A stretch of DNA of 64,000 nt from the NCBI RefSeq assembly GCF_000024025.1, contig NC_013131.1, forward strand, positions 5,270,001-5,334,000, written 5' to 3'. This document shows, one piece after another, positions 49,150-64,000 of this stretch (within the stretch, counting starts at the first letter, position 1; the number at the start of each line of letters is the position of its first letter). The position numbers were made by a program, and so were the translations under genes. The DNA is from Catenulispora acidiphila DSM 44928. GTDB taxonomy: Bacteria; Actinomycetota; Actinomycetes; Streptomycetales; Catenulisporaceae. The notes beneath the pieces are model-generated. The model was not told the origin of the DNA. It did no database searches and saw only the letters and a program-made list of their open reading frames with translations.

Positions 49150-50136
49150 ATGGCGGTGACGATCAACGAGGTGGCCAAGGCGGTCGGCGTCTCGACGTCC
49201 ACCGTCTCGCGGGCGTTCACCGCTCCGGACCAGGTACGTCCCGAAACGCGCGAGCGGGTCCTGGAGGTCTCCGCCGAGCTCGGCTACGTCCCCAACCCCT
49301 CAGCGCGCTCGCTGCGCGCCGGCGCCACGGCGACGCTCGGCATGATCATCCCGGACCTCGCCAACCCCTTCTATCCGCCGATCTTCAAAGCCCTGCAACA
49401 GCGGGCCCGCCATCTCGGCTACACCACGCTGGTCGCAGACTGCGACGACCGGGAGAGCGCGGAGTTGGACGCCATCGCGGCGATCGCCAACCGCGTGGAC
49501 GGGCTGCTGCTGTTCGCCTCGGCGCTGCCGGAGGAGCGGTTGCGCGCCATCGCCGCTCAGACGCCGCTGGTCCTGGTCAACCGCGACGTGCCGGGGATCA
49601 GCAGCCTGCGTATCGACCTCACCGCCGGCGTCCGGCAGGCCGGCGAACTGCTCTACGCTCTCGGGCACCGCCGCTGCGCGCTGATCGACGCCAGCCGTCC
49701 TGGATACGAGCGCGACAAGCTGTTCGCGGAGATCTTCCGCGGTCTGGGGCTCACGGTCGTCGAGCTGGGACCGTACGAGCCGCGGTTCGAGTCCGGCGTG
49801 CATGCCGCGACGCTCGTGGCCACCGGCGGCGCGACCGCCGTGCTGGCGCACAACGACCTGGTGGCGCTCGGCGCGTTGCAGCAGTTCACCGCGCTGGGGG
49901 TGCGAGTGCCGGCGGACGTGAGCCTGGTAGGCATCGACGACACGCTGCTCGCCTCGGTGTGCACGCCGGCGCTGACCAGCGTGCGCATCGATCCCGAGGA
50001 GCTGGCCGCGGCCGCCGCGGAGCTGCTGCTCGAGGCGGTCACCGGGCGCGGCGACTCCCCCAGGCAGGTCGTGATCGGGACACGCCTGGTCTCGCGCGCG
50101 TCCACCGGACCCGCGCCGGCGCCTACGAACCGGTAG
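49150..50136 (+). CDS. LacI-family transcriptional regulator
   Basis: A 328-aa regulator. HTH and hinge: VTINEVAKAVGVSTSTVSRAF ... RVLEVSAELGYVPNPSARSLR. The periplasmic-binding-like core follows (LGMIIPDLANPFYPPIFKALQQRA, VLVNRDV, ALIDASRPGYERDKLF, DVSLVGIDDTLLA). It probably controls its own gene and the divergent Gfo/Idh/MocA gene through the twin CAATCGTTC sites. The last 14 bp overlap the convergent condensation-protein gene. Confidence 0.94.
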   Translation: MAVTINEVAKAVGVSTSTVSRAFTAPDQVRPETRERVLEVSAELGYVPNPSARSLRAGATATLGMIIPDLANPFYPPIFKALQQRARHLGYTTLVADCDDRESAELDAIAAIANRVDGLLLFASALPEERLRAIAAQTPLVLVNRDVPGISSLRIDLTAGVRQAGELLYALGHRRCALIDASRPGYERDKLFAEIFRGLGLTVVELGPYEPRFESGVHAATLVATGGATAVLAHNDLVALGALQQFTALGVRVPADVSLVGIDDTLLASVCTPALTSVRIDPEELAAAAAELLLEAVTGRGDSPRQVVIGTRLVSRASTGPAPAPTNR

Positions 50137-51589
50137 TGGAAAGCGTCGCGTTCGCGGCGATCCCGGACGGACAGGCGGGGTCGAACGCCGCGGCGACGAG
50201 GATCCGCTCCATCTCCCGGACGATCACCTCCTGCTCCTCCGGCGTCACCTTCTCGGTGTCCACGCGCAGCATCAGGTTGAGGGTGTCCGGGACGGGGTTG
50301 AGCTCCATGAACGTCTGCGCGTCCGGGACGTCGGTGTGCGGTCCCCAGGTCAGCGTCGTCAGCGGCAGCGCGGCCTCGATCTCCTCCGGCGTCGGGAGCG
50401 GTCCGGGGCGCGGCGCGCCGAATTCGCGGCGCAGGTCGTTGAAGTAGCACAGGAGGTCCACCTCCTCGCCCCGCTCGGCGGCCACGCGCGCGAACATCGC
50501 CAGCAGGTCGCGCGGATCGAAGTAGGCGTACTTGCCGGCCTTCAGCTGGCTGCGCCAGGCTCGCTGGGCGACGGTGTCGAAGTCCGTGTCGGCGACGTCG
50601 ACCACGCACAGACACGACGCGAGCAGCGGGGTGACCGACTCCCGCAGACCGGGGCGGAAGCGGTTGCTGATGAACGTCCGGATGGCGCTGGTGCTCTTGC
50701 CGGAGACCTTCGCCAGCCCCACCGCGTAGGCGCCGAGCACGATGGACCCGGTGTTCGCGCCGGTGCGCGCGGCGATCGAAGTCGCGGCAAGGTGGCAGGC
50801 CTTGGAGTCCAGGGTGACGTCCGACCACTGCGGGTCGCGGGGCTCGTATTCGCTGTCGAAGCGGCGCCCCGGCACCAGCCGCACCATCTTCTCCCAGTAG
50901 TCGACCGAGGCCGCGCTCTGCCGCAGCGCGGTGGCGCCCTGCTGCTGCCGCGCCAGCTCGAAGGGCTGCATGCCCTCGCGCGGCGCCAGGTGCGCACCGG
51001 TGTCCCGATCCAGGTTCCGCAGGTCGCCCACCAGCGCCTCGAACCCAAGCCCGTCGATCGCGATGTGCGGATACATCGCGGCGAAGTACACCGGGACACC
51101 GGCTCGCCGCAGCACGGCCATCTTGACCGGCCAGTCGGCGGTGACGTCGAAGGGCCCATGCTCGTACCCGGACCGCACCGCCTCCGCCGCCTCAGCGGGA
51201 TCCTCGTCCAGGCCGATGTCGACGATGTCCAGGGCGACCTCGCCGGAGGAGTAGAGCACCTGGACCGGCTCGCCGTCCTCCCGGAACCGGTAGCGCGTCC
51301 GCAACGACTGGTTCCGCTCCACGATGAAAGCCAACAGGTTGACGATGTGCTCGACGGTCGTGCCCTCCTCCAGGGGCACAGTCCCGCCGATCATCACCGC
51401 CTCCCCCGCGAGCTGCATCATGCGCATGATGTTGCGCTGGCCCCACGTCAGTTCGGACTCGCCCGACCCGTCCCCCGAGAACGGCACCAGAATCCGGTCT
51501 CCCACCAGCTCACCATCGATTCTCTGAGATTCCCGCCAGCCCCATCGCGGACGGTTTTCATCGTCCGACAGAGCGGGTTGGGACGTCAA
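50123..51589 (-). CDS. Stand-alone condensation-domain (NRPS-type) protein
   Basis: A protein of about 488 aa with the chloramphenicol-acetyltransferase-like fold of NRPS condensation domains. Core motif C1 is seen in LTWGQRNIMRMMQLAG, and the active site as PHIAIDG: the first His of HHxxxDG is Pro, but the catalytic second His (H165) and Asp (D169) remain. Later parts (YWEKMVRLVPGRRF, FISNRFRPGLRESVTPLLASCLCVVD) match the second half of the fold. No adenylation or carrier domain, and no biosynthetic gene, lies nearby. It may form an amide or ester between free or carrier-bound substrates. The start is uncertain (TTG 51589, or downstream GTG 51505). Confidence 0.82.
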   Translation of the reverse strand: MTSQPALSDDENRPRWGWRESQRIDGELVGDRILVPFSGDGSGESELTWGQRNIMRMMQLAGEAVMIGGTVPLEEGTTVEHIVNLLAFIVERNQSLRTRYRFREDGEPVQVLYSSGEVALDIVDIGLDEDPAEAAEAVRSGYEHGPFDVTADWPVKMAVLRRAGVPVYFAAMYPHIAIDGLGFEALVGDLRNLDRDTGAHLAPREGMQPFELARQQQGATALRQSAASVDYWEKMVRLVPGRRFDSEYEPRDPQWSDVTLDSKACHLAATSIAARTGANTGSIVLGAYAVGLAKVSGKSTSAIRTFISNRFRPGLRESVTPLLASCLCVVDVADTDFDTVAQRAWRSQLKAGKYAYFDPRDLLAMFARVAAERGEEVDLLCYFNDLRREFGAPRPGPLPTPEEIEAALPLTTLTWGPHTDVPDAQTFMELNPVPDTLNLMLRVDTEKVTPEEQEVIVREMERILVAAAFDPACPSGIAANATLSTTGS

Positions 51590-53573: not shown

Positions 53574-53668
53574 CTGCGACGAGCGCCGACCAGCCGTGAT
53601 GAGCTCCGACTAGCGCCGACTAGCTCCACCAACGAGTCCCAACGAGCCCCGCCGAGCACCGACTAACG
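53557..53668. repeat. Degenerate tandem repeat of GAGC.CCGACTA units between convergent genes
   Basis: Several units close to GAGC(A/G/T)CCGACTAG/A run from the end of the HxlR gene to the end of the LacI gene. The two outermost copies, GAGCACCGACTAAC, are identical and hold the two genes' stop codons. It looks like stepwise duplication of a stop-codon segment. Confidence 0.6.
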
Positions 53669-54709
53669 CCCCGGCGCCGGCGCCGTGCTCTCCCGCACCG
53701 ACAGCGTCGGCGGCAGCAGCGTCACGCCCGAGTTCCCGGCGTCCGGTCCCAGCAGCATCTCCACCGCCTGCCGCCCGAGTTCCTGGGCGGGTACCGGAAT
53801 CGTCGTCAGGCGCGGCGAGGTCTGCACCGCCACCGGCTCGTCCGGGCCGATCGCCACGATCGACACCTCCTCCGGGACCGTGCGTCCCGACGAGCGCAGC
53901 AGTCCCAGCAGCGGCGCGATCATCGCCTCGTTCTGCACGACCAGCCCGGTGGTGTCCGGCCGGTCCTCGAAGATGCGCGCCAGCACGCCGGCCGCGCCCT
54001 CGAACGAGGCGTCGCAGGGCCGGTGGACGGCCCGCAGCCCGCGCGTCTGGCACCGCTCCTGGAACCCGGCGAGGGTGCGCTCGGCGAAGCCGGTGTGGCG
54101 GCGGTAGACGCCCTCGCTCTGGCCGATGAACGCGATCTCGTGGTGGCCGAGGTCCGCCAGGTGGTCGGCGGCGGTCGCGCCGGCGGCGGCGAAGTCCAGG
54201 TCCACGCAGGACAGCCCGGCCGGGTCGGCGGGCAGGCCGATCAGCGAGGCGCGGGTGCCGTGGCGGCGCAGGACCTCCACCCGCTCGTCCTCCAGCTCCA
54301 CGTCCATCAGGATCACGCCGTCGGCCAGGCCGCTGCCGGCCACCCGGCGCACGCCCTCGGGTCCCTCGTCGTTGGTGATCAGCAGCACGTCGTGCCCGTA
54401 CTGCCGGGCGGTGGTGGTGACCGCGATCGCGATCTGCATCATCACCGGCACGTACAGGTCGGTGCGCAGCGGCACGACCAGCGCCACGATGTGCGACTTG
54501 CTGCTGGCCAGCGCCCGCGCGCCGGCGTTGGGGTGGTAGCCCAGCGCGTCGATCGCCGCCTGCACGCGCACGCGCGTGGAGTCCGAGATGGAGCGCTTGC
54601 CGCTGAGAACATAGGAGACCGTGCTCGGCGAGACTCCCGCGTGCTTCGCCACTTCGGCGAGTGTCGCCATCCTGGTCACCTGGTCCTTCGGATCGGTCAT
54701 GCCTGTCAT
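53663..54709 (-). CDS. LacI-family regulator of the GH42/GH3/ABC locus
   Basis: A 348-aa regulator: MATLAEVAKHAGVSPSTVSYVLSGKRSISDSTRVRVQAAIDALGYHPN is the HTH and hinge, then the sugar-binding core (HIVALVVPLRTDLYVPVMMQIAIAVTTTARQYG, IAFIGQSEGVYRRHTGFAERTLAGF, SIVAIGPDEPVAVQ). Its start overlaps the stop of the GH42 gene by ATGA, so it is translated with it. Hinge and HTH type fit a CG-centred palindrome such as ATCGAAGCGCTTCGAT, found four times around this locus. It is the probable repressor of GH42 (and itself), GH3 and the importer. A shorter start at the inner ATG 54670 is possible. Confidence 0.93.
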   Translation of the reverse strand: MTGMTDPKDQVTRMATLAEVAKHAGVSPSTVSYVLSGKRSISDSTRVRVQAAIDALGYHPNAGARALASSKSHIVALVVPLRTDLYVPVMMQIAIAVTTTARQYGHDVLLITNDEGPEGVRRVAGSGLADGVILMDVELEDERVEVLRRHGTRASLIGLPADPAGLSCVDLDFAAAGATAADHLADLGHHEIAFIGQSEGVYRRHTGFAERTLAGFQERCQTRGLRAVHRPCDASFEGAAGVLARIFEDRPDTTGLVVQNEAMIAPLLGLLRSSGRTVPEEVSIVAIGPDEPVAVQTSPRLTTIPVPAQELGRQAVEMLLGPDAGNSGVTLLPPTLSVRESTAPAPGR

Positions 54710-56718
54710 TGTGGACTGTCTTGCCGGTGCTCCGGGGCACTGGCGCGGAGGAGAACAAGAAGGACACCGTAGCCGGGCAGTTCGGTGTCGGAGACCTCCG
54801 CGCTGCCGCGGATCACCACCGCTTCGGCGTTGTGGTTGAGCAGCACGAGCGTGTCGCCGCGTCGGACCGCCTCGACGCCGCGCGGCAGTCCGGCGACCAC
54901 CGGTTCGACGCCGGATTGGCGTGCCGCCTCAGCGAGGATCCGGTCCAGTCCGTCGGCGCAGGGCTGGACGGCGACGTACCAAGCTGTGCCGGAACCGTGC
55001 GCGTTGCGCGTCACCGCGGCTCGGCCGTCCTTCAGAGCGGCGATGACCTGCGCGCCGCGCGGATGCGCCAGCTCGGTCCAGTCCAGGGCGTCGAAGTCGC
55101 CGAGGTCGGCGGACTGGCAGAGCTCTGTCTCGCCCTCGTCCAGCGGATGGAACTCCTCGACGAACACTCCCAGCGCCTCGCGCAGCGCAGCGGCCTGATA
55201 CCCGCCGGGGTGCAGGCGCGTGGTCTGGTCGACGGTTCCGGTCAGGTAGCCGGCGACCAGGCATCCGCCGTCGGCGGCGTAGCGCGCGAGGTGTTCGGCG
55301 TCGGCCGTGGACAGGACGTGCAGCGCCGGCGCCAGCACGAGGGGGTAGCCGCTCAGGTCGTCGCTGACCCGCACGAAGTCGACGGCGATGTTCTGCCGCC
55401 ACAGCGAGGCGTGCCACTGCTTCACTATCCGCTGGTAGTCCACGCGTTCTGAGGGCTTGCCGCGCCAGCTCAGCGCCCACCGGCTCGGCCAGTCCAGGAT
55501 GATCGCGGCGCGCGCCGTCACGGTCGTGCCGATCAGGGCCTTGAGTCCGTCGTCCTCGGCGAGTTCGCGGCCGTGGTCGGTGACTTCGCGGAAGGTGCGG
55601 GTGTCGGGACCGGCGTTCGGCAGCATTCCGGCGTGGAAGCGTTCGGCGCCGGAGGCGGCTTGGCGCCATTGGAAGAACAGGGAGGCGTCGGCGCCGCGCG
55701 CGATGGCCTGCAAGGAGTACAGGCGCATCTGACCGGGGCGCTTGTGCTTGTTGACCTGCCGCCAGTTCACCTCGGACGGCGACTGCTCCATGAGGACCCA
55801 CGGCTGGCCGCCGGACAGGGAGCGCGCGAGGTCGGCGGCGTAGGCGTGATCGGCGCCGGCCTCTGCGCCGAGCGCGGGGTCGGGGTAGGAGTCGACGGAG
55901 GCGAAGTCGAAGCGTCCGCGCAGGTCCCACTGGTCGATGGCGGCGTAATCGGGGATCAGGTTGGTGGTGATCGGCAGCGCTGGGTTGTGGCGGCGCAGGA
56001 TCGCCGCTTCGGCGTCGAAGCAGGCGAGGAGGGCGTCGGACAGGTAGCGGCTGTAGTCCAGGACCTGCGCGGGGTTGAGCATGTAGGGGGCGGCGCGCGG
56101 CGGCTTGATCTCGGCCCAGCCGCCGTAGTGCTGGCTCCAGAAGGCGGTGCCCCAGGCCTGGTTCAGCGCTTCGAGCCCCGCGTCGCCGTCGCCGTAGCGC
56201 TCGCGGAGCCAGCTGCGGAAGCCGAATTCGCAGTTGCGGCACCAGCACCACGGGCCCGGCTCGTTGCCGACGTGCCACATCGTCACGGCGGGGTGGTGCG
56301 CGTAGCGGGCTGCCAGGTCCTCGACGATGGCGTCGGCGCGCTCGCGGTAGACCGGCGAGGAGGGGCAGTACTGGTTGCGGGAACCGTAGCCGTGGACGAC
56401 GCCGTCGGCCATCACCGGCAGGGTGTCGCGGTACAGGTGGCCGAGCCAGGGCGGCGGGGAGGCGGTCGGGGTCGCGAGGATCGCGCCGAGGCCGTTGGCG
56501 TGCACCAGGTCCAGGACGCGGTCCAGCCAGGCGAAGTCGCGCTCGCCGGGGCGCGGTTCGTAGCGGGCCCAGGAGAAGACGCCGACGGTCACGGTGTTCA
56601 CCCCGGCCTGGCGCATCAAGGCCATGTCCTCGGCCCACACGTCCTCGGGCCATTGCTCGGGGTTGTAGTCGCCGCCGTACAGGAGCCGGCCGCGCGTAGC
56701 GTCGTTCAGGTGTGGCAC
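54706..56718 (-). CDS. GH42 beta-galactosidase
   Basis: A 670-aa cytoplasmic enzyme (no signal peptide) cleaving beta-galactosides. The barrel begins RLLYGGDYNPEQWPEDVW; the acid/base is Glu153 in HVGNEPGPWC and the nucleophile Glu311 in VLMEQSPSEVNWR. The Cys cluster near PWCWCRNC is a zinc-site feature of many GH42 enzymes. The trimerisation domain (DLSGYPLVLAPALHVLS) and C-terminal beta domain follow. GTG 56718 is preferred over ATG 56748: it has GGAAGG upstream, whereas the ATG lies inside the LacI operator with no ribosome-binding site. The LacI gene overlaps its stop. It is divergent from GH3. Confidence 0.94.
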   Translation of the reverse strand: MPHLNDATRGRLLYGGDYNPEQWPEDVWAEDMALMRQAGVNTVTVGVFSWARYEPRPGERDFAWLDRVLDLVHANGLGAILATPTASPPPWLGHLYRDTLPVMADGVVHGYGSRNQYCPSSPVYRERADAIVEDLAARYAHHPAVTMWHVGNEPGPWCWCRNCEFGFRSWLRERYGDGDAGLEALNQAWGTAFWSQHYGGWAEIKPPRAAPYMLNPAQVLDYSRYLSDALLACFDAEAAILRRHNPALPITTNLIPDYAAIDQWDLRGRFDFASVDSYPDPALGAEAGADHAYAADLARSLSGGQPWVLMEQSPSEVNWRQVNKHKRPGQMRLYSLQAIARGADASLFFQWRQAASGAERFHAGMLPNAGPDTRTFREVTDHGRELAEDDGLKALIGTTVTARAAIILDWPSRWALSWRGKPSERVDYQRIVKQWHASLWRQNIAVDFVRVSDDLSGYPLVLAPALHVLSTADAEHLARYAADGGCLVAGYLTGTVDQTTRLHPGGYQAAALREALGVFVEEFHPLDEGETELCQSADLGDFDALDWTELAHPRGAQVIAALKDGRAAVTRNAHGSGTAWYVAVQPCADGLDRILAEAARQSGVEPVVAGLPRGVEAVRRGDTLVLLNHNAEAVVIRGSAEVSDTELPGYGVLLVLLRASAPEHRQDSPQ

Positions 56719-56746
56719 CGAGAGGGCCTTCCGGGTCCGGGACGTC

Positions 56747-56773
56747 ATCGAAGCGCTTCGATGTCCGAAGGTA
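56747..56773 (-). promoter_or_regulatory. LacI operator 1 and GH42 promoter -10
   Basis: ATCGAAGCGCTTCGAT (56747-56762) is a perfect palindrome, 18 bp including its flanks. On the minus strand TTGTGC (56792-56797), an 18-bp spacer and TACCTT (56768-56773) place the transcription start inside the operator. Confidence 0.85.
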
Positions 56774-56822
56774 CGGCAGGGGCAGACGACGGCACAAGGC
56801 CGGGTCGGAGATCGCTTTCCCC

Positions 56823-56865
56823 TTGACACCGGCGACTCGGATGGAAACCATCGAAGCGCTTCGAT
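56823..56865 (+). promoter_or_regulatory. GH3 promoter with LacI operator 2
   Basis: TTGACA (56823-56828) and a weak AACCAT (56846-56851) are 17 bp apart. The identical operator ATCGAAGCGCTTCGAT lies at 56850-56865, over the -10 and start point. Its centre is 103 bp (about ten helical turns) from operator 1. Confidence 0.85.
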
Positions 56866-56894
56866 TCCGCTCCGCCCCGCTGAAGGACGATCCC

Positions 56895-59315
56895 GTGACC
56901 CAGGCCTCCTCCGATCCCGGCTCCCGCCCTCTCCCCGGTCCCCTCCCCCGCCCCGGCCACCGTGATGCCGCCGACATCCTGGCCCGGCTGACCCTGGCGG
57001 AGAAGATCGCGATGCTGCACCAGCACCAGCCGGCCGTCCCCCGGCTCGGGCTCGCGGCGTTCACCACCGGCTGCGAGGCGCTGCACGGCGTGGGCTGGAT
57101 CGGGCGCGCGACGGTGTTCCCGCAGGCCGTCGGGCTCGGGGCGACGTGGGATCGGGAGCTGCTGCGGCGGGTCGGGCAGGCGGTGTCGAGCGAGGTGCGC
57201 GCGTTCCGTCAGGACACTGCGAAGGCGATGGCGAAGAACGAGGTCGCCGAGAAGTTCCCGATGGTGTCGCTGAACGTCTGGGCGCCGGTGGTGAACCTGC
57301 TGCGCGATCCGCGCTGGGGACGCAACGAGGAGGGGTACAGCGAGGACCCGTACGCCACCGGCGAGATGGCGATCGCCTACTGCCGCGGACTGCGCGGCGA
57401 CGACCCGCGCGTGTGGCGCACCGCTCCCCTGCTGAAGCACTTCCTCGCCTACAACGCCGAGACCGACCGCGACATCGCCAGCGCCACGGTGCCCGAGCGG
57501 GTGCTGCACGAGTACGAGCTGCCGGCGTTCCGGCGGCCGATCGAGGACGGCGCGGTCGCGGGCGTGATGCCCGGATACAACCTGGTCAACGGGATCCCGA
57601 ACCATGTCCACCCGCTGATCGGCTCCGCGTTGCGCGCGTGGGACGCGGAGCTGGCGGTGTGCTCGGACGCGCAGGCGCCGTCGAACCTGGTTGAGCGGGA
57701 GAAGTACTTCGATACGCACGTCGAGTCGCACGCCGCCGCGCTGCTGGCGGGGATCGACAGCTTCACGGACAACTCGCAGGACAGCGCGCCGACGATCGAG
57801 CGGTTCACTGAAGCTTTCACGCGCGGGTTGGTGTCCGAGGCGGATATCGACGCGGCGGTGGGGCGGGTGCTGCTGATGCGGCAGCGGACCGGGGAGTTCG
57901 ATCCGGAGGGTGATCCGTACGCGGGGATCCGGGCGGAGGTGATCGCCTCCGCTGAGCACGCGGCGCTGGCTTTGGAGGCGGCGCGGGCGGGGGTGGTGCT
58001 GCTGCGGAACGAGGGGGGTGCGCCGCCGCTGGCTGAGTTCTCGGGGGCGATCGCGGTCGTCGGGCATCTCGGGTCGCGGGTGCTGACCGACTGGTATAGC
58101 GGGACGCTGCCTTACGCGGTCTCCATTGCCGAAGGGCTGGGGGCGGCTGCCGCGGTTGACGGGTCGGACACGGTGCTGCTGCGGTCGGCGGGTGGGGAGG
58201 GCGGCGAGTTCGGGCCGTTCAAGCACGTCGACTGGGGTACGAGCGTGCAGTGCCCGCAGGCTGTCCACACTTTCCAGTCTGTTGATTCAGGCCTGTACCT
58301 GACTGTCGGCGACGACTCGGTGGTGGACGCGGCTGCGGCTACGCCGGACGGCTGGGTCGTGCGGGAGCTGTTCGAGCTCGAGCATGTCGCGGGCGGTGTC
58401 GCGGTGCGGTCCAACGCGACCGGTCGGTACGTGCGCGTCGGCGCCGACGGCGTGTTGATCGCCGACTCGGACACACCCGAGGAGATCTTCACGCTCCAGG
58501 TACTCACCTCAGGCCTCGACGAAGCCGCCCGCGCGGCGGCGAGCGCCGAGCGAGTGGTCCTGGTCGTCGGCAACGACCCGCACATCAACGGCCGCGAGAC
58601 CATCGACCGCGACAGCCTCGCGCTGCCGCCGCACCAGGAGGCCCTACTGGCCGCGGTCCACGCGGCGAACCCGGCCACGACACTGGTGATCGTCTCCAGC
58701 TACCCCTACGCGATCGACACACAGATCCCCACGATCCTGTGGACCTCCCACGCCGGCCAGGAACTCGGCACCGCCATCGCCGACATCCTCACCGGCGCCC
58801 ACAACCCCTCCGCCCGCCTCCCCCAGACCTGGTACGCGAGCGCCGACGGCCTGCCCGACCCGTACGACTACGACATCATCGGCTCGGAGTGGACATACCA
58901 GTACTCCCGCCGCGACCACCTGTGGGCATTCGGCCACGGCCTCTCCTACACGGACTTCGAGTACTCAGACCTGACGCTCACGCGCTCCGACTCGGACTCG
59001 GACTCGGACTCGGACTCGACGCTCACGGCAACGCTGGAGGTCACCAACACCGGCACACGCGACGGAGCCGAAATCGTCCAGCTCTACACCCGCTCCCTCG
59101 ACGGCGACCGCCGCCCCCTCCGCAAGCTCGCAGCCTTCACCAAGCTGCACCTACCAGCAGGCGAAAGCCAGACGGTCACCTTCGACGTGCCACTGACCGA
59201 GCTGGCCTTCTGGGACGAGGCAGCGCAGCACTTCGCCATCGACAAGGGCCGCTACGAGGTCCTCGTCGGCGCCTCGTCACAGGACATTCGGACGCGACAG
59301 GAGTTCTCGGCGTAA
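56895..59315 (+). CDS. GH3 beta-glycosidase with inserted beta-trefoil-like domain
   Basis: An 806-aa enzyme without a signal peptide, so intracellular. GH3 N-terminal barrel: LTLAEKIAMLHQHQ, the ALHGVGWIG region and LLKHFLAYNAE; the nucleophile is D258 in VCSDAQAPSN. In the C-terminal GH3 domain a stretch near residues 440-530 (FQSVDSGLYLTVGDDSVV, RSNATGRYVRVGADGVL) resembles a fascin-like trefoil. It is followed by the catalytic-loop region (VGNDPHINGRETIDRD), HAGQELGTAIADILTGAHNPSARLPQTW and a fibronectin-like domain (VTNTGTRDGAEIVQLY). A GACTCG repeat encodes (Asp-Ser)5 in a loop. GTG 56895 follows the operator and has GAAGG. Probably beta-glucosidase or beta-xylosidase. Confidence 0.92.
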   Translation: MTQASSDPGSRPLPGPLPRPGHRDAADILARLTLAEKIAMLHQHQPAVPRLGLAAFTTGCEALHGVGWIGRATVFPQAVGLGATWDRELLRRVGQAVSSEVRAFRQDTAKAMAKNEVAEKFPMVSLNVWAPVVNLLRDPRWGRNEEGYSEDPYATGEMAIAYCRGLRGDDPRVWRTAPLLKHFLAYNAETDRDIASATVPERVLHEYELPAFRRPIEDGAVAGVMPGYNLVNGIPNHVHPLIGSALRAWDAELAVCSDAQAPSNLVEREKYFDTHVESHAAALLAGIDSFTDNSQDSAPTIERFTEAFTRGLVSEADIDAAVGRVLLMRQRTGEFDPEGDPYAGIRAEVIASAEHAALALEAARAGVVLLRNEGGAPPLAEFSGAIAVVGHLGSRVLTDWYSGTLPYAVSIAEGLGAAAAVDGSDTVLLRSAGGEGGEFGPFKHVDWGTSVQCPQAVHTFQSVDSGLYLTVGDDSVVDAAAATPDGWVVRELFELEHVAGGVAVRSNATGRYVRVGADGVLIADSDTPEEIFTLQVLTSGLDEAARAAASAERVVLVVGNDPHINGRETIDRDSLALPPHQEALLAAVHAANPATTLVIVSSYPYAIDTQIPTILWTSHAGQELGTAIADILTGAHNPSARLPQTWYASADGLPDPYDYDIIGSEWTYQYSRRDHLWAFGHGLSYTDFEYSDLTLTRSDSDSDSDSDSTLTATLEVTNTGTRDGAEIVQLYTRSLDGDRRPLRKLAAFTKLHLPAGESQTVTFDVPLTELAFWDEAAQHFAIDKGRYEVLVGASSQDIRTRQEFSA
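58987..59016 (+). repeat. Five GACTCG units inside GH3
   Basis: Five perfect tandem hexamers encode alternating Asp-Ser. The number may vary between strains without shifting the frame. Confidence 0.85.
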
Positions 59316-59320
59316 GAGCC

Positions 59321-59509
59321 CTACCCTGCGTCTATCCCCCGATCAACCTCCAGCGCCGGCCAGGTGACGATCAAAAACGTCGCCAGCGGCCCGAGGAACA
59401 CCGAGGCCACGAACCAGTTCCAGCCGCTGCGGCCCTTTCCTTGCGCCAGGCCGGCGTTCACCAAGCTCAGCGTGAACCAGCCTGCGCCGGTGCTGACATA
59501 GCCGTCCAT
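59321..59509 (-). CDS. Small membrane protein, unknown function
   Basis: A 62-aa protein with WFTLSLVNAGLAQGKGRSGWNWF followed by a hydrophobic helix (VASVFLGPLATFLIVTW). Similar short proteins with NAGLAQGKxRSGxNWF and a GPxATF helix are common in actinobacteria, from memory, which supports a real gene. It ends 5 bp from the convergent GH3 stop. Function unknown. Confidence 0.65.
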   Translation of the reverse strand: MDGYVSTGAGWFTLSLVNAGLAQGKGRSGWNWFVASVFLGPLATFLIVTWPALEVDRGIDAG

Positions 59510-59607
59510 CCCCGCCCCCGTTTCACCATGGCCGAAGTGCCGGGCGTGCTGCCCGGCACTTGAGCGCCATGTCCTGCTTCCTGTTGTACTCGCTACCTGT
59601 TCTCGCT

Positions 59608-59654
59608 ACCCCTTGATAGCCCCCGTCAACATTCCCTTCGAGAAGTGCTTCTGC
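59608..59654. repeat. Direct repeat copy 1 (relic of permease 3' end)
   Basis: 47 bp identical, but for one base, to 60143-60189. On the minus strand it encodes the permease C-terminus (KHFSKGMLTGAIKG) followed by TAG. Confidence 0.9.
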
Positions 59655-59689
59655 GGGAACCGGCGTCGCGTCCCCGCCGTCGAACCGGG

Positions 59690-60151
59690 GTGACGAAACG
59701 ACTCTGCGGCAGCGTGGCGAGATCACTCCTCCTCAGCCTCGGTGGCCTCGCCGCTCTGGCAGCCTGTGCTTCGTGTAGCTCTGTCCCGCGTGTTACCAAT
59801 GCCGCCCCGCCTTTGGTGATCTGCGGAAAGACGCTGAGCAACTCGGCTGCGGGAGCAACCATCGAAAACGCGACCGCGCAGGATGTGACTGTCACCTCGG
59901 TCACCGTGGGGAATCTGATCTTCCTGCACGTCGCGTCCGGCTGCCGCACCGGCGCCGATGTCGCCGTTCAGCCGAGCGGCGCCGCGACCGTCGTCGACGA
60001 CGCCCGCGCCTCGGACGGCCGGGACGTCGCGGTGGTGCTGCAGCCCCACCGCGACGCCTTCACCGTGCGTGCCACTCGCTCGCCGACCTCGACATCCCTC
60101 ATCACCGTGCAGGGTCTCGGGCTGGCGGAGCAGGCCACCGTCACCCCTTGA
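59690..60151 (+). CDS. Small exported lipoprotein-like protein between direct repeats
   Basis: A 153-aa protein. GTG 59690 gives VTKRLCGSVARSLLLSLGGLAALAAC, a lipoprotein-type signal with lipobox LAAC. The mature part (VTNAAPPLVICGKTLSNSAAG, VTVGNLIFLHVASGCRTGADVAV) looks like a small beta-sandwich with two further Cys. It is not recognised. It is transcribed against the ABC operon and ends 11 bp inside the permease gene. It lies between two 47-bp copies of the permease 3' end, so it appears to have been inserted into the operon's downstream flank. Confidence 0.7.
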   Translation: MTKRLCGSVARSLLLSLGGLAALAACASCSSVPRVTNAAPPLVICGKTLSNSAAGATIENATAQDVTVTSVTVGNLIFLHVASGCRTGADVAVQPSGAATVVDDARASDGRDVAVVLQPHRDAFTVRATRSPTSTSLITVQGLGLAEQATVTP

Positions 60152-61094
60152 TAGCCCCCGTCAACATCCCCTTCGAGAAGTGCTTCTGCACGAAGGGCGT
60201 CAGCACGATGATCGGCACCAGCGACAGCGACACCACGCACATCTGCAAGCCGAGCTGCGAGGCGTTCTGCAGTCCGCCGATGCCTGTGGTGCCCATGCCG
60301 GGCATCTGGTTGCCTGAGTACGTGTACTCGTAGATCACCATCGCCAGCGGCCATTTGCGGCTGTCGGGTTCGTACAGCAGGGCGTTGAAGAAGGTGCCCC
60401 AGTAGGTCACGGCGTAGAACATCGTCATCACGGCGAGGACGGGGCGCGAGGTCGGGATGACTACTGACCAGAGGAGGCGCCATTCGTTGGCGCCGTCGAG
60501 GCGGGCGGCTTCGATCATCTCCGCGGCGGTGTTTTGGAAGAAGGAGCGGATGATGAGGATGTTGAAGACGTTCACCATGGAGGGGAGGATCATCGCCCAC
60601 ATGCTGCCGTAGAGCTTCAGGTCGCTGACCACCAGGAACGTCGGGATCAGGCCGCCGTTGAAGAACATGGTGACGATCAGCATCATCAGGAGTGGGCGCT
60701 GGCCGAAGGAGCGGGGGCGGGACAGGCCGTAGGCGGCCAGGACGCTGACCAGCATTGACAGGGCGGTGCCGATCAGGGTCACGAAGAGGCTGACGTAGAG
60801 GGCCTGGGAGACGGTGCCGCCGCTGAAGATGAGCTGGTAGTTCTGCAGGCTCAGGCCGTGGGGGACCAGGACCAGGCCGCCGGCGGCGTTGATGGAGCTC
60901 TTGGTGGAGAAGCTGGTGATCACCACGGCCCAGACCGGGACGATGACCAGGGCGCAGACGACGGTCAGGACCGTGCCCTTGCCGAACTGGCCGAACCAGG
61001 TCGGGCTCTCCTCCCAGACCTCGCGGCCCTTGGCTCGCTTGCGCGGGGCGGTGGTGACGGCGCGCGAGGGGGGCGACTGCGTTAATGAGCTCAT
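60141..61094 (-). CDS. Sugar ABC transporter permease (LplC/YtcP type)
   Basis: A 317-aa inner-membrane permease of a carbohydrate importer (CUT1-like). Six hydrophobic segments are visible. The cytoplasmic EAA loop is EAARLDGANEWRLLWSVVIP. The C-terminus FVQKHFSKGMLTGAIKG is typical of the YtcP/LplC group. Its start overlaps the previous permease stop (ATGA). The N-terminal 35 residues are basic and cytoplasmic. No ATPase gene is present in the operon, so a shared MsiK-type ATPase elsewhere is probably used. Confidence 0.94.
   Translation of the reverse strand: MSSLTQSPPSRAVTTAPRKRAKGREVWEESPTWFGQFGKGTVLTVVCALVIVPVWAVVITSFSTKSSINAAGGLVLVPHGLSLQNYQLIFSGGTVSQALYVSLFVTLIGTALSMLVSVLAAYGLSRPRSFGQRPLLMMLIVTMFFNGGLIPTFLVVSDLKLYGSMWAMILPSMVNVFNILIIRSFFQNTAAEMIEAARLDGANEWRLLWSVVIPTSRPVLAVMTMFYAVTYWGTFFNALLYEPDSRKWPLAMVIYEYTYSGNQMPGMGTTGIGGLQNASQLGLQMCVVSLSLVPIIVLTPFVQKHFSKGMLTGAIKG
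60143..60189. repeat. Direct repeat copy 2 (permease 3' end)
   Basis: The functional copy at the permease end, 535 bp from copy 1. One mismatch (T/C) and then divergence beyond TGCTTCTGC. Confidence 0.9.
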
Positions 61095-62080
61095 TTTCTG
61101 TACAACCCGTCCTCACCGAATGCGTGCGCGAGTCTGTTGGCGCCCAGGATCAGGATCAGCGACAGGACTGCTTTGAACAGTCCCGCCGCGGCGCCGTAGC
61201 TGTAGTCGGCGCCCATGGTGGTCGCCGAGCCGAAGCCGCCGCCGATGCCGTAGATGTAGGAGTACGTGTCCAGGACGTCCGCGGCGCCCGCGCCGACCGC
61301 CTGGCGCTGGATCAGCATCTGCTCGAAGCCGACGCTCAGGGCGTTGCCCAGGCGCAGTACGAGCATCAGCACCACGATGCCGCGCAGGCCCGGCATCGTG
61401 ATGTGCCGCATCCGCCGCCAGCGGCCGGCGCCGTCCACGGCCGCCGCCTCGTACAGCGACTGGTCGATGGCGGCCAGCGCGGCCAGGAAGACGATCAGTC
61501 CCCAGCCCGCTTCCTTCCACACCGCCTGCGCGGTGACCAGGTACTTGAAGGTGTGCGGGTCGGTCATGACGTTCCAGGAGGAGATCCCGTGCTTGTTCAG
61601 GAACACGTTCAGCACGCCCGCGCCGCCGAGGAACTCCTGGAAGATCGTGATGACCAGCACGTAGGAGAAGAAGTGCGGCAGGTACACCACGGCCTGGATG
61701 AAGCCGCGGACCTTCGAACTGAGCACCGTGTTGACCATCAGGGCCAGCGCGATCGGGAGCGGGAAGTACAGGACCAGCTGGACGAAGCTGATCACCAGCG
61801 TGTTCTCGAACGCGTGCCAGAAGTCGGGGTTGGCGACCAGCTGGCGGAACTCGTCCAGCCCGACGAAGTCGCTGTGGACCAGGCCCTGGTAGATGTCGTA
61901 GTGCTCGAAGGCCACGATGATGCCGGCCATCGGCAGGTAGTTGAACACCAGCAGCAGCGCCAGGGCCGGGATCGTCATCAGCAGCAGGGACTTGTCCCTG
62001 CGCAGCCGGATCCGCCAGGACATCCGCGGGCGCGGGCGGGCGCCGCGGCGGGTACGGGGCGGCGCCGTCGACACGCTCAC
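61091..62080 (-). CDS. Sugar ABC transporter permease (LplB type)
   Basis: A 329-aa inner-membrane permease, partner of the next. Six segments: LLLMTIPALALLLVFNYLPMAGIIVAF, then the NTLVISFVQLVLYFPLPIALALM region. EAA loop: EAAAVDGAGRWRRMRHITMPG. DTYSYIYGIGGG and the MGADYSYGAAAGLFKAVLSLILIL end are typical of LplB permeases. GTG 62080 follows the binding-protein stop by 2 bp, which argues for coupled translation. The pair handles long oligosaccharides in related systems. Confidence 0.94.
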   Translation of the reverse strand: MSVSTAPPRTRRGARPRPRMSWRIRLRRDKSLLLMTIPALALLLVFNYLPMAGIIVAFEHYDIYQGLVHSDFVGLDEFRQLVANPDFWHAFENTLVISFVQLVLYFPLPIALALMVNTVLSSKVRGFIQAVVYLPHFFSYVLVITIFQEFLGGAGVLNVFLNKHGISSWNVMTDPHTFKYLVTAQAVWKEAGWGLIVFLAALAAIDQSLYEAAAVDGAGRWRRMRHITMPGLRGIVVLMLVLRLGNALSVGFEQMLIQRQAVGAGAADVLDTYSYIYGIGGGFGSATTMGADYSYGAAAGLFKAVLSLILILGANRLAHAFGEDGLYRK

Positions 62081-62082
62081 TC

Positions 62083-63780
62083 TCAGTTCCCCGTGCCGTA
62101 CTGCTTGGCGATGCCGTCGTAGAAGTCCCGCAGCTGGTTGCCGCCGGCGTTCTGCCAAGTGCTCAGCGCCGACTGGAAGTCCGCCACGCTCTTGCGGCCC
62201 ATGCGCACGTCGGTGATGACCGCCTCCAGCGCCGTGCTCGCCTTCGCGGTCTGCGCCGGCTCGCTGATGTTCATCGCGTAGAACAGCGGCTTGTACGCGT
62301 GCTGCACCATGTCGCCCTGCCAGGCGGCGTAGTCCTTGGTGATCTGGTTGTAGCCGGCGTTGAACGTCACCGACTGGCAGTTGGCCAGCTGGTCCAGGGT
62401 GTCGGTGACGTCCTTGTTGCCCTGGTCGGTGAGGATCGGCGCGCCGCTGGTCATCGTGTAGTCCACGCCTTCCTTGCCGTACCGCGACACCAGGTACTCG
62501 GCGCTGCCGAACGGCGCGGCGAGGTAGTTGGCGATCCGCAGCAGCTCCTTGACCTGCGCGTCGGAGAGCTTCTTGTTCAGGTAGGAGAACATCCCGGCGC
62601 CCGGATACAGGGGCATCGTCGCCTTGCCGCCGTCGTAGGCGAAGATCTTGAAGGCCTGGCGCTCATAGGAGGGGTTGGCCGCGACGCCGCTTTGCGCGTC
62701 GCCCTTGTTCCACGCCCCGGTGCCGTCGGCGGTGATCACGGTCTTGCCGGCCCAGAAGCGGTTCTTGGCCTTCGAGGAGTCGCCGGCCAGCGCGTCGGGG
62801 TGGATCAGGCCGCCCTTGGCCAGGCCGTTGGCGAAGTTCAGCATCTCCAGGAACTCCGGCACCTCGTAGCCGTTGACCAGCTTGCCGGTGCTGTCGCGCT
62901 TCCAGCCGGTCCGCCCGTTGTTCGCCGGGACGTTGAACAGCTGGTAGAGGAAGGAGCTGAGGTCCTCGAAGGCGTACTGGCCCTTCGCCGGGACGGTGAC
63001 CTGCTTGCCGACCGCCTTGAGGGTGTCGGCGGTGGTGACCGAGGCGGCGTCGATGCCGGCGGCCTTGAAGATGTCCGCGCGGTAGAACATCGCGCCGGGG
63101 ATGCTGGCCGCCGAGGTCCACAGCGGGATGCCGTACAGCTTGCCGTTCCACACCGCGGCCTGCCAGCCGCCGGTCGGGATCGCGGCGAGGTTCGGGTAGT
63201 CCAGCACCTTGTCGCCGCCGAGGTAGGGCGTCAGGTCCTTGAAGAACTTGTCGACGCCCTCGGCGAAGTTCTGAATCGAGGAGACGTTCCAGCCGGGCAC
63301 GTCCAGCCAGTCCGGGATGTTGCCGGAGGCGAAGCGGGTCGCCAGCATCGTGGCGAAGGTGGTGCCGTCGGACGGGCTGTCGGTGAGCGTCGCGCCCAGA
63401 GCCTGGTTCACCGCCGTGTAGTAGCTGTTCCCCGGCGCCGGGACCGAGCCCCAGATCGGCGAGACCGCCGAGTACGAGCCGCCGTTGCCGACCGCGCCGG
63501 TCACCGACTTCGGCGGGCTGGCCGGGTAGGACAGGAACGCCGGGTCGCTGGCCGCGCCGTTCGCGCCGGTGACCGAGGGGATGTCGGCGGTGACCGCGCT
63601 GCTCGGCTTGTACGTCGGCAGCACCGCCTGCACCGCGGACTTGGGCGCGACCCCGCTGGCCTTGGTCGCCGCCTTGCCGGAACCGCAGGCGGACAGCAGC
63701 GGAGCGGCGGCTATCGCTCCGCCGATCGCCGCGGAGGTCTTGAACACCTGGCGGCGGGAGAAGCCGTTCGAACTCGTCAT
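62083..63780 (-). CDS. Extracellular solute-binding lipoprotein (LplA type)
   Basis: A 565-aa sugar-binding lipoprotein of the importer. The N-terminus has a twin-arginine motif (SRRQVFK) followed by a hydrophobic stretch and the lipobox LLSAC, so Tat export and lipidation at Cys are likely. The length (over 500 residues) and features such as DWLDVPGW, GKLYGIPLW and the C-terminal LRDFYDGIAKQYG match the LplA family for large oligosaccharides. The ATG at 63780 has GGAGGG. Two LacI-type operators lie upstream. First gene of the import operon. Confidence 0.93.
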   Translation of the reverse strand: MTSSNGFSRRQVFKTSAAIGGAIAAAPLLSACGSGKAATKASGVAPKSAVQAVLPTYKPSSAVTADIPSVTGANGAASDPAFLSYPASPPKSVTGAVGNGGSYSAVSPIWGSVPAPGNSYYTAVNQALGATLTDSPSDGTTFATMLATRFASGNIPDWLDVPGWNVSSIQNFAEGVDKFFKDLTPYLGGDKVLDYPNLAAIPTGGWQAAVWNGKLYGIPLWTSAASIPGAMFYRADIFKAAGIDAASVTTADTLKAVGKQVTVPAKGQYAFEDLSSFLYQLFNVPANNGRTGWKRDSTGKLVNGYEVPEFLEMLNFANGLAKGGLIHPDALAGDSSKAKNRFWAGKTVITADGTGAWNKGDAQSGVAANPSYERQAFKIFAYDGGKATMPLYPGAGMFSYLNKKLSDAQVKELLRIANYLAAPFGSAEYLVSRYGKEGVDYTMTSGAPILTDQGNKDVTDTLDQLANCQSVTFNAGYNQITKDYAAWQGDMVQHAYKPLFYAMNISEPAQTAKASTALEAVITDVRMGRKSVADFQSALSTWQNAGGNQLRDFYDGIAKQYGTGN

Positions 63781-63846
63781 GGGACCCTCCATCGAAACGG
63801 ATGTGCGTGAAGTAGTACGGGAGTCGTACGTGAACCAGTACCGATC

Positions 63847-63862
63847 GTCGAAGCGCTTCAAT
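63847..63862. promoter_or_regulatory. LacI operator 3 (GTCGAAGCGCTTCAAT)
   Basis: 14 of 16 bases equal the GH42/GH3 operators. It lies 67 bp upstream of the binding-protein ATG. Confidence 0.82.
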
Positions 63863-63915
63863 GTTGCGTTGAGGTTAGGTCAGCCGCCCATTCGAGACAA
63901 GGGTGAGCGGTAACA

Positions 63916-63931
63916 TGCGAAGCGCTTCGAC
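63916..63931. promoter_or_regulatory. LacI operator 4 (TGCGAAGCGCTTCGAC)
   Basis: 13 of 16 bases equal the other operators, with the core CGAAGCGCTTCG intact, 69 bp from operator 3. The two could bind one tetramer by looping. Confidence 0.78.
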
Positions 63932-63974: not shown

Positions 63975-64000
63975 TCAGTCTTCAAGCGTCAGCACCACGG
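63975..64000 (-). CDS. Possible C-terminal end of the next gene (partial)
   Basis: On the minus strand the last 26 bases read VVLTLED followed by TGA (63975-63977). The codons have G/C third positions. Too little remains to identify it; it would lie upstream of, and in the same direction as, the importer. Confidence 0.35.

Follow-up and report, generated by a model that had tools for sequence, protein, structure and literature searches.

Towards one end of a 64,000-nucleotide stretch of the genome of the soil bacterium Catenulispora acidiphila (hereafter the window; genome positions 5270001-5334000), the gene for a LacI-family regulator, lacI_A, lies beside genes for two glycoside hydrolases (GH), of families GH42 and GH3, and an Lpl-type importer, and the enzyme and importer genes are preceded by similar palindromic sites. 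Which sugar does this set of genes serve, and how far does its control reach? Comparison of sequences leads us to propose, with high confidence, that the window holds four of the 16 operators of a dispersed, LacI-controlled regulon for the use of xyloglucan, a sugar polymer of plant cell walls, and that other actinomycetes appear to have a similar arrangement.

A scan of the window for palindromes found two exact copies of ATCGAAGCGCTTCGAT in the divergent promoter region between GH42 and GH3, namely operator O1 on the GH42 side (56747-56762) and operator O2 on the GH3 side (56850-56865). Two close variants precede the importer: O3 (63847-63862), which reads GTCGAAGCGCTTCAAT, differs from ATCGAAGCGCTTCGAT by two mismatches and corresponds to ATTGAAGCGCTTCGAC along the direction of transcription, and O4 (63916-63931; TGCGAAGCGCTTCGAC, three mismatches), a weaker copy upstream of O3. 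Both pairs, which an earlier note on this DNA had picked out, were thereby confirmed. Up to three mismatches from ATCGAAGCGCTTCGAT, the whole window contains these four matches against 0.22 expected, and four or more were reached in none of 100 shuffles. The core CGAAGCGCTTC taken alone proved a poor marker, with 63 window matches within two mismatches against 35.5 expected. When the GH42/GH3 gap was aligned across four Catenulispora genomes, O1 and O2 were invariant, with 32 of 32 operator columns conserved against 43 of 87 between them (P 1.6e-8). The longest possible GH42 and GH3 open reading frames (ORFs) would place these operators in coding sequence and are probably over-extended; the likely starts, GTG 56718 for GH42 and GTG 56895 for GH3, each with a purine-rich stretch upstream, leave both operators non-coding, each about 29-30 bp ahead of the likely start of its own gene.

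The earlier note had taken these genes for a self-contained regulon with four operators and had proposed a genome-wide search for the motif. That search, run over the single 10,467,782-base contig, returned 17 sites within two mismatches of the 16-mer against none for the reversed control. The bare core GAAGCGCTTC occurs 51 times (39 for its reversed control) and, of 50 such cores examined, 16 agree with the TC..GA flanks at three or four of the four positions. These 16 TCGAAGCGCTTCGA-type sites fall in ten intergenic regions and six neighbourhoods over a span of about 4.5 Mb, all of them ahead of likely starts at carbohydrate-active enzyme (CAZyme), importer or lacI genes; three (3195374, 5326853 and 5638478) were counted as intergenic because they lie inside the longest ORF yet before the likely gene start. 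Among the remaining 34 cores, 19 lie well within called ORFs and a single one (5631186) forms the second site of a further regulator gene, lacI_B; the rest are treated as background. A stand-alone regulon in the window is thus ruled out, together with the count of four, whereas the proposal that a LacI protein controls GH42, GH3 and the Lpl-type importer is supported.

Two of the ten regions lie in the window, at the GH42/GH3 gap (O1, O2) and at the importer (O3, O4), and the element continues past its edge. A third region, 2.3-2.4 kb beyond (genome positions 5336323 and 5336388), serves a GH31 gene and a divergent CE7 acetyl esterase gene; the 3' end of this GH31 gene (L022 976-3291; L and G numbers are our handles for loci and genomes) reaches into the window at 63975-64000 on the minus strand, the rest of it and its operators lying outside. 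Its product has YicI as best PDB match (E 2.7e-298; PDB titles: putative glucosidase), an enzyme that we take to have alpha-xylosidase activity. The fourth region precedes a secreted GH12 (5603964, 5604076), the fifth precedes lacI_B (5631084 and a poorer site at 5631183), and the sixth lies between a second importer, whose cluster includes a second GH42, and a second GH3 (5638239, 5638475), making up with lacI_B a second lacI/GH42/GH3/importer set at 5.63 Mb. The seventh stands at a secreted CBM2 enzyme that matches bacterial GH74 xyloglucanases (E 0; 7699813); the eighth between a GH6-like gene (L021 10850-12253, labelled by eye) and a secreted GH12-CBM2 gene, with GH48 beyond (4023351); the ninth at a GH43 gene (4018089); and the tenth at another, separate importer, whose binding protein is SBP_C (3195179, 3195371). 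Genes in the fetched loci were called with a simple purpose-made caller.

The xyloglucan reading follows from this company: GH74, GH12, GH31 and the other families under the same operators amount to a parts list of xyloglucan use. A hydrophobic N-terminus is present in GH74, GH12 and the binding proteins and absent from the window GH42 and GH3 enzymes (GH42_A and GH3_A), GH31 and CE7, in line with the earlier view that GH42 and GH3 are intracellular; judged by family and N-terminus, GH31, GH3 and GH42, with their predicted activities, are thus intracellular enzymes under one operator. The observed sites and the degree to which they are conserved, together with the families of the genes and the linkage between LacI and site, are the basis for a model of binding, repression and induction, with a predicted substrate for each enzyme and importer. 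Secreted GH74 and GH12 would cut xyloglucan into oligosaccharides, to be taken up by Lpl-type importers that lack a dedicated ATPase gene; in the cell, GH42 would remove galactose, the YicI-like GH31 would remove xylose and GH3 would cleave the backbone of glucan. Acetyl and other side groups would fall to CE7 and GH43. LacI_A, encoded in the window, and LacI_B, encoded at 5.63 Mb, would occupy the TCGAAGCGCTTCGA operators through the same DNA-reading helix, and the entry of a xyloglucan-derived oligosaccharide would release them, the natural inducer being perhaps an imported xyloglucan oligosaccharide or isoprimeverose. The earlier suggestion that the importer brings in an intact oligosaccharide agrees with this model; of the substrates then offered, xyloglucan is singled out by the rest of the regulon, and arabinogalactan and galacto-oligosaccharides are not. 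Several possible beta-galactosides would in this way be narrowed to a single named substrate, and the regulon becomes open to testing.

Galacto-oligosaccharides are common substrates of GH42 enzymes, and the overlap of lacI_A with GH42 is local; both would suit a galacto-oligosaccharide or arabinogalactan regulon confined to the window genes, with remote sites that arose by chance or belong to other regulators. We consider this very unlikely, given that the excess of sites over the reversed control includes sites ahead of GH74, GH12 and GH31, that relatives group varying subsets of GH74, GH12, GH31, GH42 and GH3 with the site and this LacI, and that, in the accessible account of an experimentally tested Ruminiclostridium cellulolyticum xyloglucan cluster, the beta-galactosidase is itself a GH42 enzyme (PMC4780118).

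The site also tracks a particular group of LacI proteins. Counting as a site any match within one mismatch and as a LacI_A/B orthologue any best match at least 60% identical, with the best 51 candidates scored in each genome, 27 of 41 relatives have the site and 27 an orthologue: 25 have both, two the site only, two the LacI only and 12 neither. In the two with LacI only (G025, G030), sites beside lacI do exist, and were missed by the 16-mer search. Among 148 genomes of the class, with the best 14 candidates scored in each, the perfect 14-mer occurs in all 16 that have the LacI (E <=1e-85) and in six of the 132 that do not (P 7e-17, a co-occurrence value that, like the others, ignores shared ancestry). 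In five of these six the site lies near another LacI gene (36-40% identical to the references) and either a GH3 gene or an operon of SBP_C and GH31; at the site of the remaining genome, G114, no match to the reference set was found.

This linkage bears on a second rival, namely that a cellobiose-type regulator (CebR/CelR) reads the sites and that they belong to a cellulase regulon. The AGCGCT centre is indeed common to these sites and the CelR/CebR operator TGGGAGCGCTCCCA, and a few of the sites have GH48 and GH6 genes in their vicinity. The flanks, by comparison, are TCGA.. here and TGGG.. there, the site follows a specific LacI subfamily, and the accessible part of a 2012 motif study that included C. 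acidiphila reports its cellulase and cellobiose-importer genes with GAAA(G/C)TTTC and TGAGAGCGCTCTCA, and not with a TCGAAGCGCTTCGA-type site (PMC3377646). CebR/CelR control was rejected, the operator being TCGAAGCGCTTCGA and not TGGGAGCGCTCCCA, and we give it only a slight chance of being correct; the pattern TG(A/G)GAGCGCTC(C/T)CA had a single match in the seven pieces of G000 scanned (L026 11001). As a separate observation, GAAAGTTTC occurs close to the SBP_C, GH12-CBM2 and lacI_B operators (L020 8125, L021 12280 and L025 6998), at distances of 55-87 bp. In the portion of the literature available, this word belongs to a motif described at cellulase genes of C. acidiphila (PMC3377646), and its placement suggests that three of the ten regions are under dual control.

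Returning to the LacI-controlled xyloglucan regulon, the genome encodes 54 LacI domains, one of them in lacI_A. The lacI_A gene (53663-54709, minus strand), the proposed repressor gene, encodes a LacI helix-turn-helix domain (PF00356, E 8.9e-18) and a periplasmic-binding-like sensor domain (Peripla_BP_3, PF13377, E 4.4e-28), with recognition helix SPSTVSYVLS and hinge GYHPNAG. LacI_A and LacI_B are 67% identical and share this helix, the next residue being G or R; LacI_B of G001, G005 and G008 has SSSTVSYVLS. In our tree, which omits a G004 copy (73%) missed by the motif cut, LacI_A falls outside a clade of LacI_B and the orthologues from genus g4, with moderate support (86/74). Both types are retained in G000, G001, G005 and G008. 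At 23 of 24 loci of the LacI_B type, two sites spaced by 80-102 bp stand next to lacI, the 24th locus being cut by a contig end, and on this ground LacI_B probably regulates itself. At loci of the LacI_A type a site lies in the fetched stretch of one of six (L155); the operators of this type precede GH42, 2 kb upstream. Other candidate regulators were set aside: the LacI encoded at 2995717 (39-40% identical to LacI_A/B) has two nearby GAAGCGCTTC cores without TC..GA flanks, one of them inside a gene, and those at 4011911, 4020801 and 5616609 share TVSY but not the other helix residues and fall in a distant clade. It is conceivable, though we lean against it, that LacI_A and LacI_B are long-parted paralogues with the same helix that share operators and answer different xyloglucan fragments, the regulon opening only on the combined signal, and that across actinomycetes the operator is the mark of a xyloglucan regulon run by LacI and not described before, a source of new enzymes and importers.

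Conservation extends beyond the GH42/GH3 gap. Gene labels in the relatives are tblastn or blastp matches to a reference set of which most, not all, members were checked with Pfam. The GH31/CE7 operator pair keeps its 65 bp spacing in five Catenulispora loci. In g4, a large genus within the order and probably Streptomyces, and in other families, varying subsets of GH3, SBP-LplB-LplC, GH74, GH42, GH12 and LacI lie near the site. Importers of the SBP_C type occur with YicI-like GH31 enzymes (57-68% identical) in L212, L219, L220, L221, L222 and L224; the site stands directly upstream of SBP_C in L212, L220, L221 and L224. In L219 and L222, SBP_C follows a lacI gene, and it is this gene that has the site upstream. 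Six loci were found with the window binding protein SBP_A, and sites are present in four, two from Catenulispora and two from Paractinoplanes. The 14-base TCGAAGCGCTTCGA could serve as a tag for xyloglucan genes genome-wide in Catenulispora, genus g4 and further off, and could reach unannotated genes such as the 565-residue SBP_A, which has no Pfam match. Near CE7, L079 (2121-3830), L140 (1817-3562) and L141 (432-2129) carry an extra binding-protein gene, its product 73-75% identical to SBP_A, with its own operator pair; in C. acidiphila an alpha-amylase gene follows CE7 in its place.

Several observations weigh against the dispersed xyloglucan regulon, in addition to the limits on candidates scored and on ancestry given above with the co-occurrence counts. 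Genomes G006 (77% complete) and G009 have sites without a LacI_A/B match. Two of the 17 C. acidiphila sites (5411003, 8751053) lie outside the ten regions, with no CAZyme seen among neighbouring genes, which were not scanned with Pfam. Four Catenulispora loci (L078, L079, L140, L141) lack O3 and O4: only some 50-150 bases separate GH31 from the importer there, with no site among them, and the importer would depend on the GH31 operators. The other two loci found with SBP_A, from Kribbella (binding proteins 30-31% identical), have no site. Perfect sites in relatives also lie near AMP-binding/condensation genes (L134), ABC exporters (L137, L144) and a major facilitator superfamily gene (L146), and sites in L217, L225 and L227 have no match to the reference set beside them. 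No convincing promoter was found for GH74, GH43 or GH12-CBM2 in a consensus scan run without a shuffle control, and the matches of GH3 are divided between beta-xylosidases and beta-glucosidases. The perfect words just mentioned stand at L134 1918, 7336 and 13505, L137 7938 and 8026, L144 7330 and L146 7109.

The arrangement of operators and promoters is consistent with repression by LacI proteins. The operators are palindromes with a central CG near putative target promoters, as in the LacI family, the promoter positions here being consensus matches. For GH3_A, its counterpart GH3_B and GH12, consensus matching without a shuffle control finds TTGAC(A/G), 17 bases and a -10-like word inside which the operator begins. 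The GH3 candidate in the window, TTGACA-17-AACCAT (56823-56851, plus strand), shares two bases of its -10 word with O2, and its TTGACA is retained in two of four aligned genomes. At SBP_A, SBP_B, SBP_C and GH31, -35- and -10-like words are followed by an operator that begins 8-9 bases past the -10 word, and the proximal operator, in the direction of transcription, is the asymmetric ATTGAAGCGCTTCGAC. The same word as O3 also precedes the importer in L136, and together with its surroundings it matches the SBP_B promoter and the L136 importer promoter; the SBP_C and GH31 promoters are likewise similar, though the two genes lie apart in C. acidiphila. Several operators thus overlap or closely follow a -10-like word, and a LacI dimer bound there would block polymerase directly. 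Looping between paired operators, read earlier from spacings of 103 and 69 bp, is neither needed nor supported. E. coli LacI uses a C-terminal tetramerisation tail, and the LacI protein here can be aligned with a LacI-family chain as far as residue 345 of its 348, which leaves no room for one; pair spacings showed no helical phasing (R = 0.27 over 39 rows, at least four of which are pairs counted twice). Looping was rejected on these two grounds.

Of the window genes themselves, GH42 (54706-56718, minus strand) is a predicted beta-galactosidase by Pfam and by its matches to GH42 beta-galactosidases in the PDB (best E 4.6e-153). Its stop codon TGA (54706-54708) overlaps the ATG of lacI_A (54709-54707) by four bases, an overlap that recurs in L141; the translational coupling claimed for the pair is plausible, the overlap being what was confirmed. 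GH3 (56895-59315, plus strand) is a beta-glucosidase/beta-xylosidase-type enzyme by Pfam, by NCBIfam matches below cut-offs and by PDB matches, the latter two including both beta-xylosidases and beta-glucosidases. Within the match to its GH3 C-terminal domain, and in that of the GH3 at L025 14350-17025, a weak fascin-like stretch scores 21.3 and 23.8 bits respectively, the cut-off being 23.1. The importer comprises two ATP-binding cassette (ABC) permeases with Pfam BPD_transp_1 domains, of LplC type (60141-61094) and LplB type (61091-62068, start codon uncertain), and SBP_A (62083-63780), all on the minus strand. SBP_A is a predicted oligosaccharide-binding lipoprotein with a twin-arginine motif and an LLSAC lipobox seen by eye. 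Its PDB sequence matches were weak (best E 1e-7), and a fold search was therefore made with a structure model (pLDDT 82): the top match was AlgQ2, which binds alginate oligosaccharides (binders of this kind gave TM-scores of 0.53-0.57, normalised by query length), and a protein that binds N-glycans was also similar (TM-score 0.58). These modelled resemblances would fit a large ligand without naming which. No ATPase gene adjoins the importer, and two UgpC-family ATPases over cut-off elsewhere in the genome could drive the importers. Further to the left, a second lacI gene (49150-50136) has no TCGAAGCGCTTCGA-type site nearby, and 50123-51589 encodes a condensation-domain protein (PF00668) with no further nonribosomal-synthetase domains in that frame.

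Provisionally, the regulon appears undescribed in the searched portions of the open-access literature, a scope outside which subscription papers and RegPrecise fall. Its closest likeness is the R. cellulolyticum xyloglucan cluster (Xyl31A, Glu3A, Gal42A and SBP2458/TMD2456/TMD2457), for which the available text describes experimentally tested GH31, GH3 and GH42 enzymes, with an importer that takes up XXXG-type oligosaccharides and has no dedicated ATPase gene (PMC4780118). Both systems combine GH31, GH3 and GH42 lacking signal peptides, a binding protein with two permeases and no ATPase gene, and an extracellular GH74, as far as that account goes (PMC4780118). In R. cellulolyticum, by the same partial sources, control lies with the XygS/XygR two-component system and its AraC-like activator (PMC4780118, PMC8576529), where C. 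acidiphila would use LacI repressors; no regulator of XygS/XygR type was found in the clusters, which have lacI genes instead, the remaining genome not having been searched for sensor kinases. Here, unlike there, palindromic operators are spread over the chromosome, gene sets are duplicated, and CE7 and GH43 are added. The CebR/CelR regulons of Streptomyces and Thermobifida, in what is accessible of their descriptions, share the LacI-family regulator, the AGCGCT-centred palindrome and dispersed CAZyme targets (PMC4898821, PMC3377646), and one such regulon of another species lists a single GH74-type xyloglucanase (PMC3377646). They differ in their operator, TGGGAGCGCTCCCA against TCGAAGCGCTTCGA here, and in targets that are mainly cellulases and a cellobiose importer. 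The Bacteroides ovatus XyGUL combines GH31, GH3 and GH43 enzymes for xyloglucan, as here, and relies on outer-membrane import of the SusC/D type and a single locus, unlike the ABC importers and scattered genes of C. acidiphila. In actinomycetes, which play a major part in the decay of plant litter, the C. acidiphila regulon would thus represent a repressor-based counterpart to the two-component switch by which clostridia control xyloglucan use.

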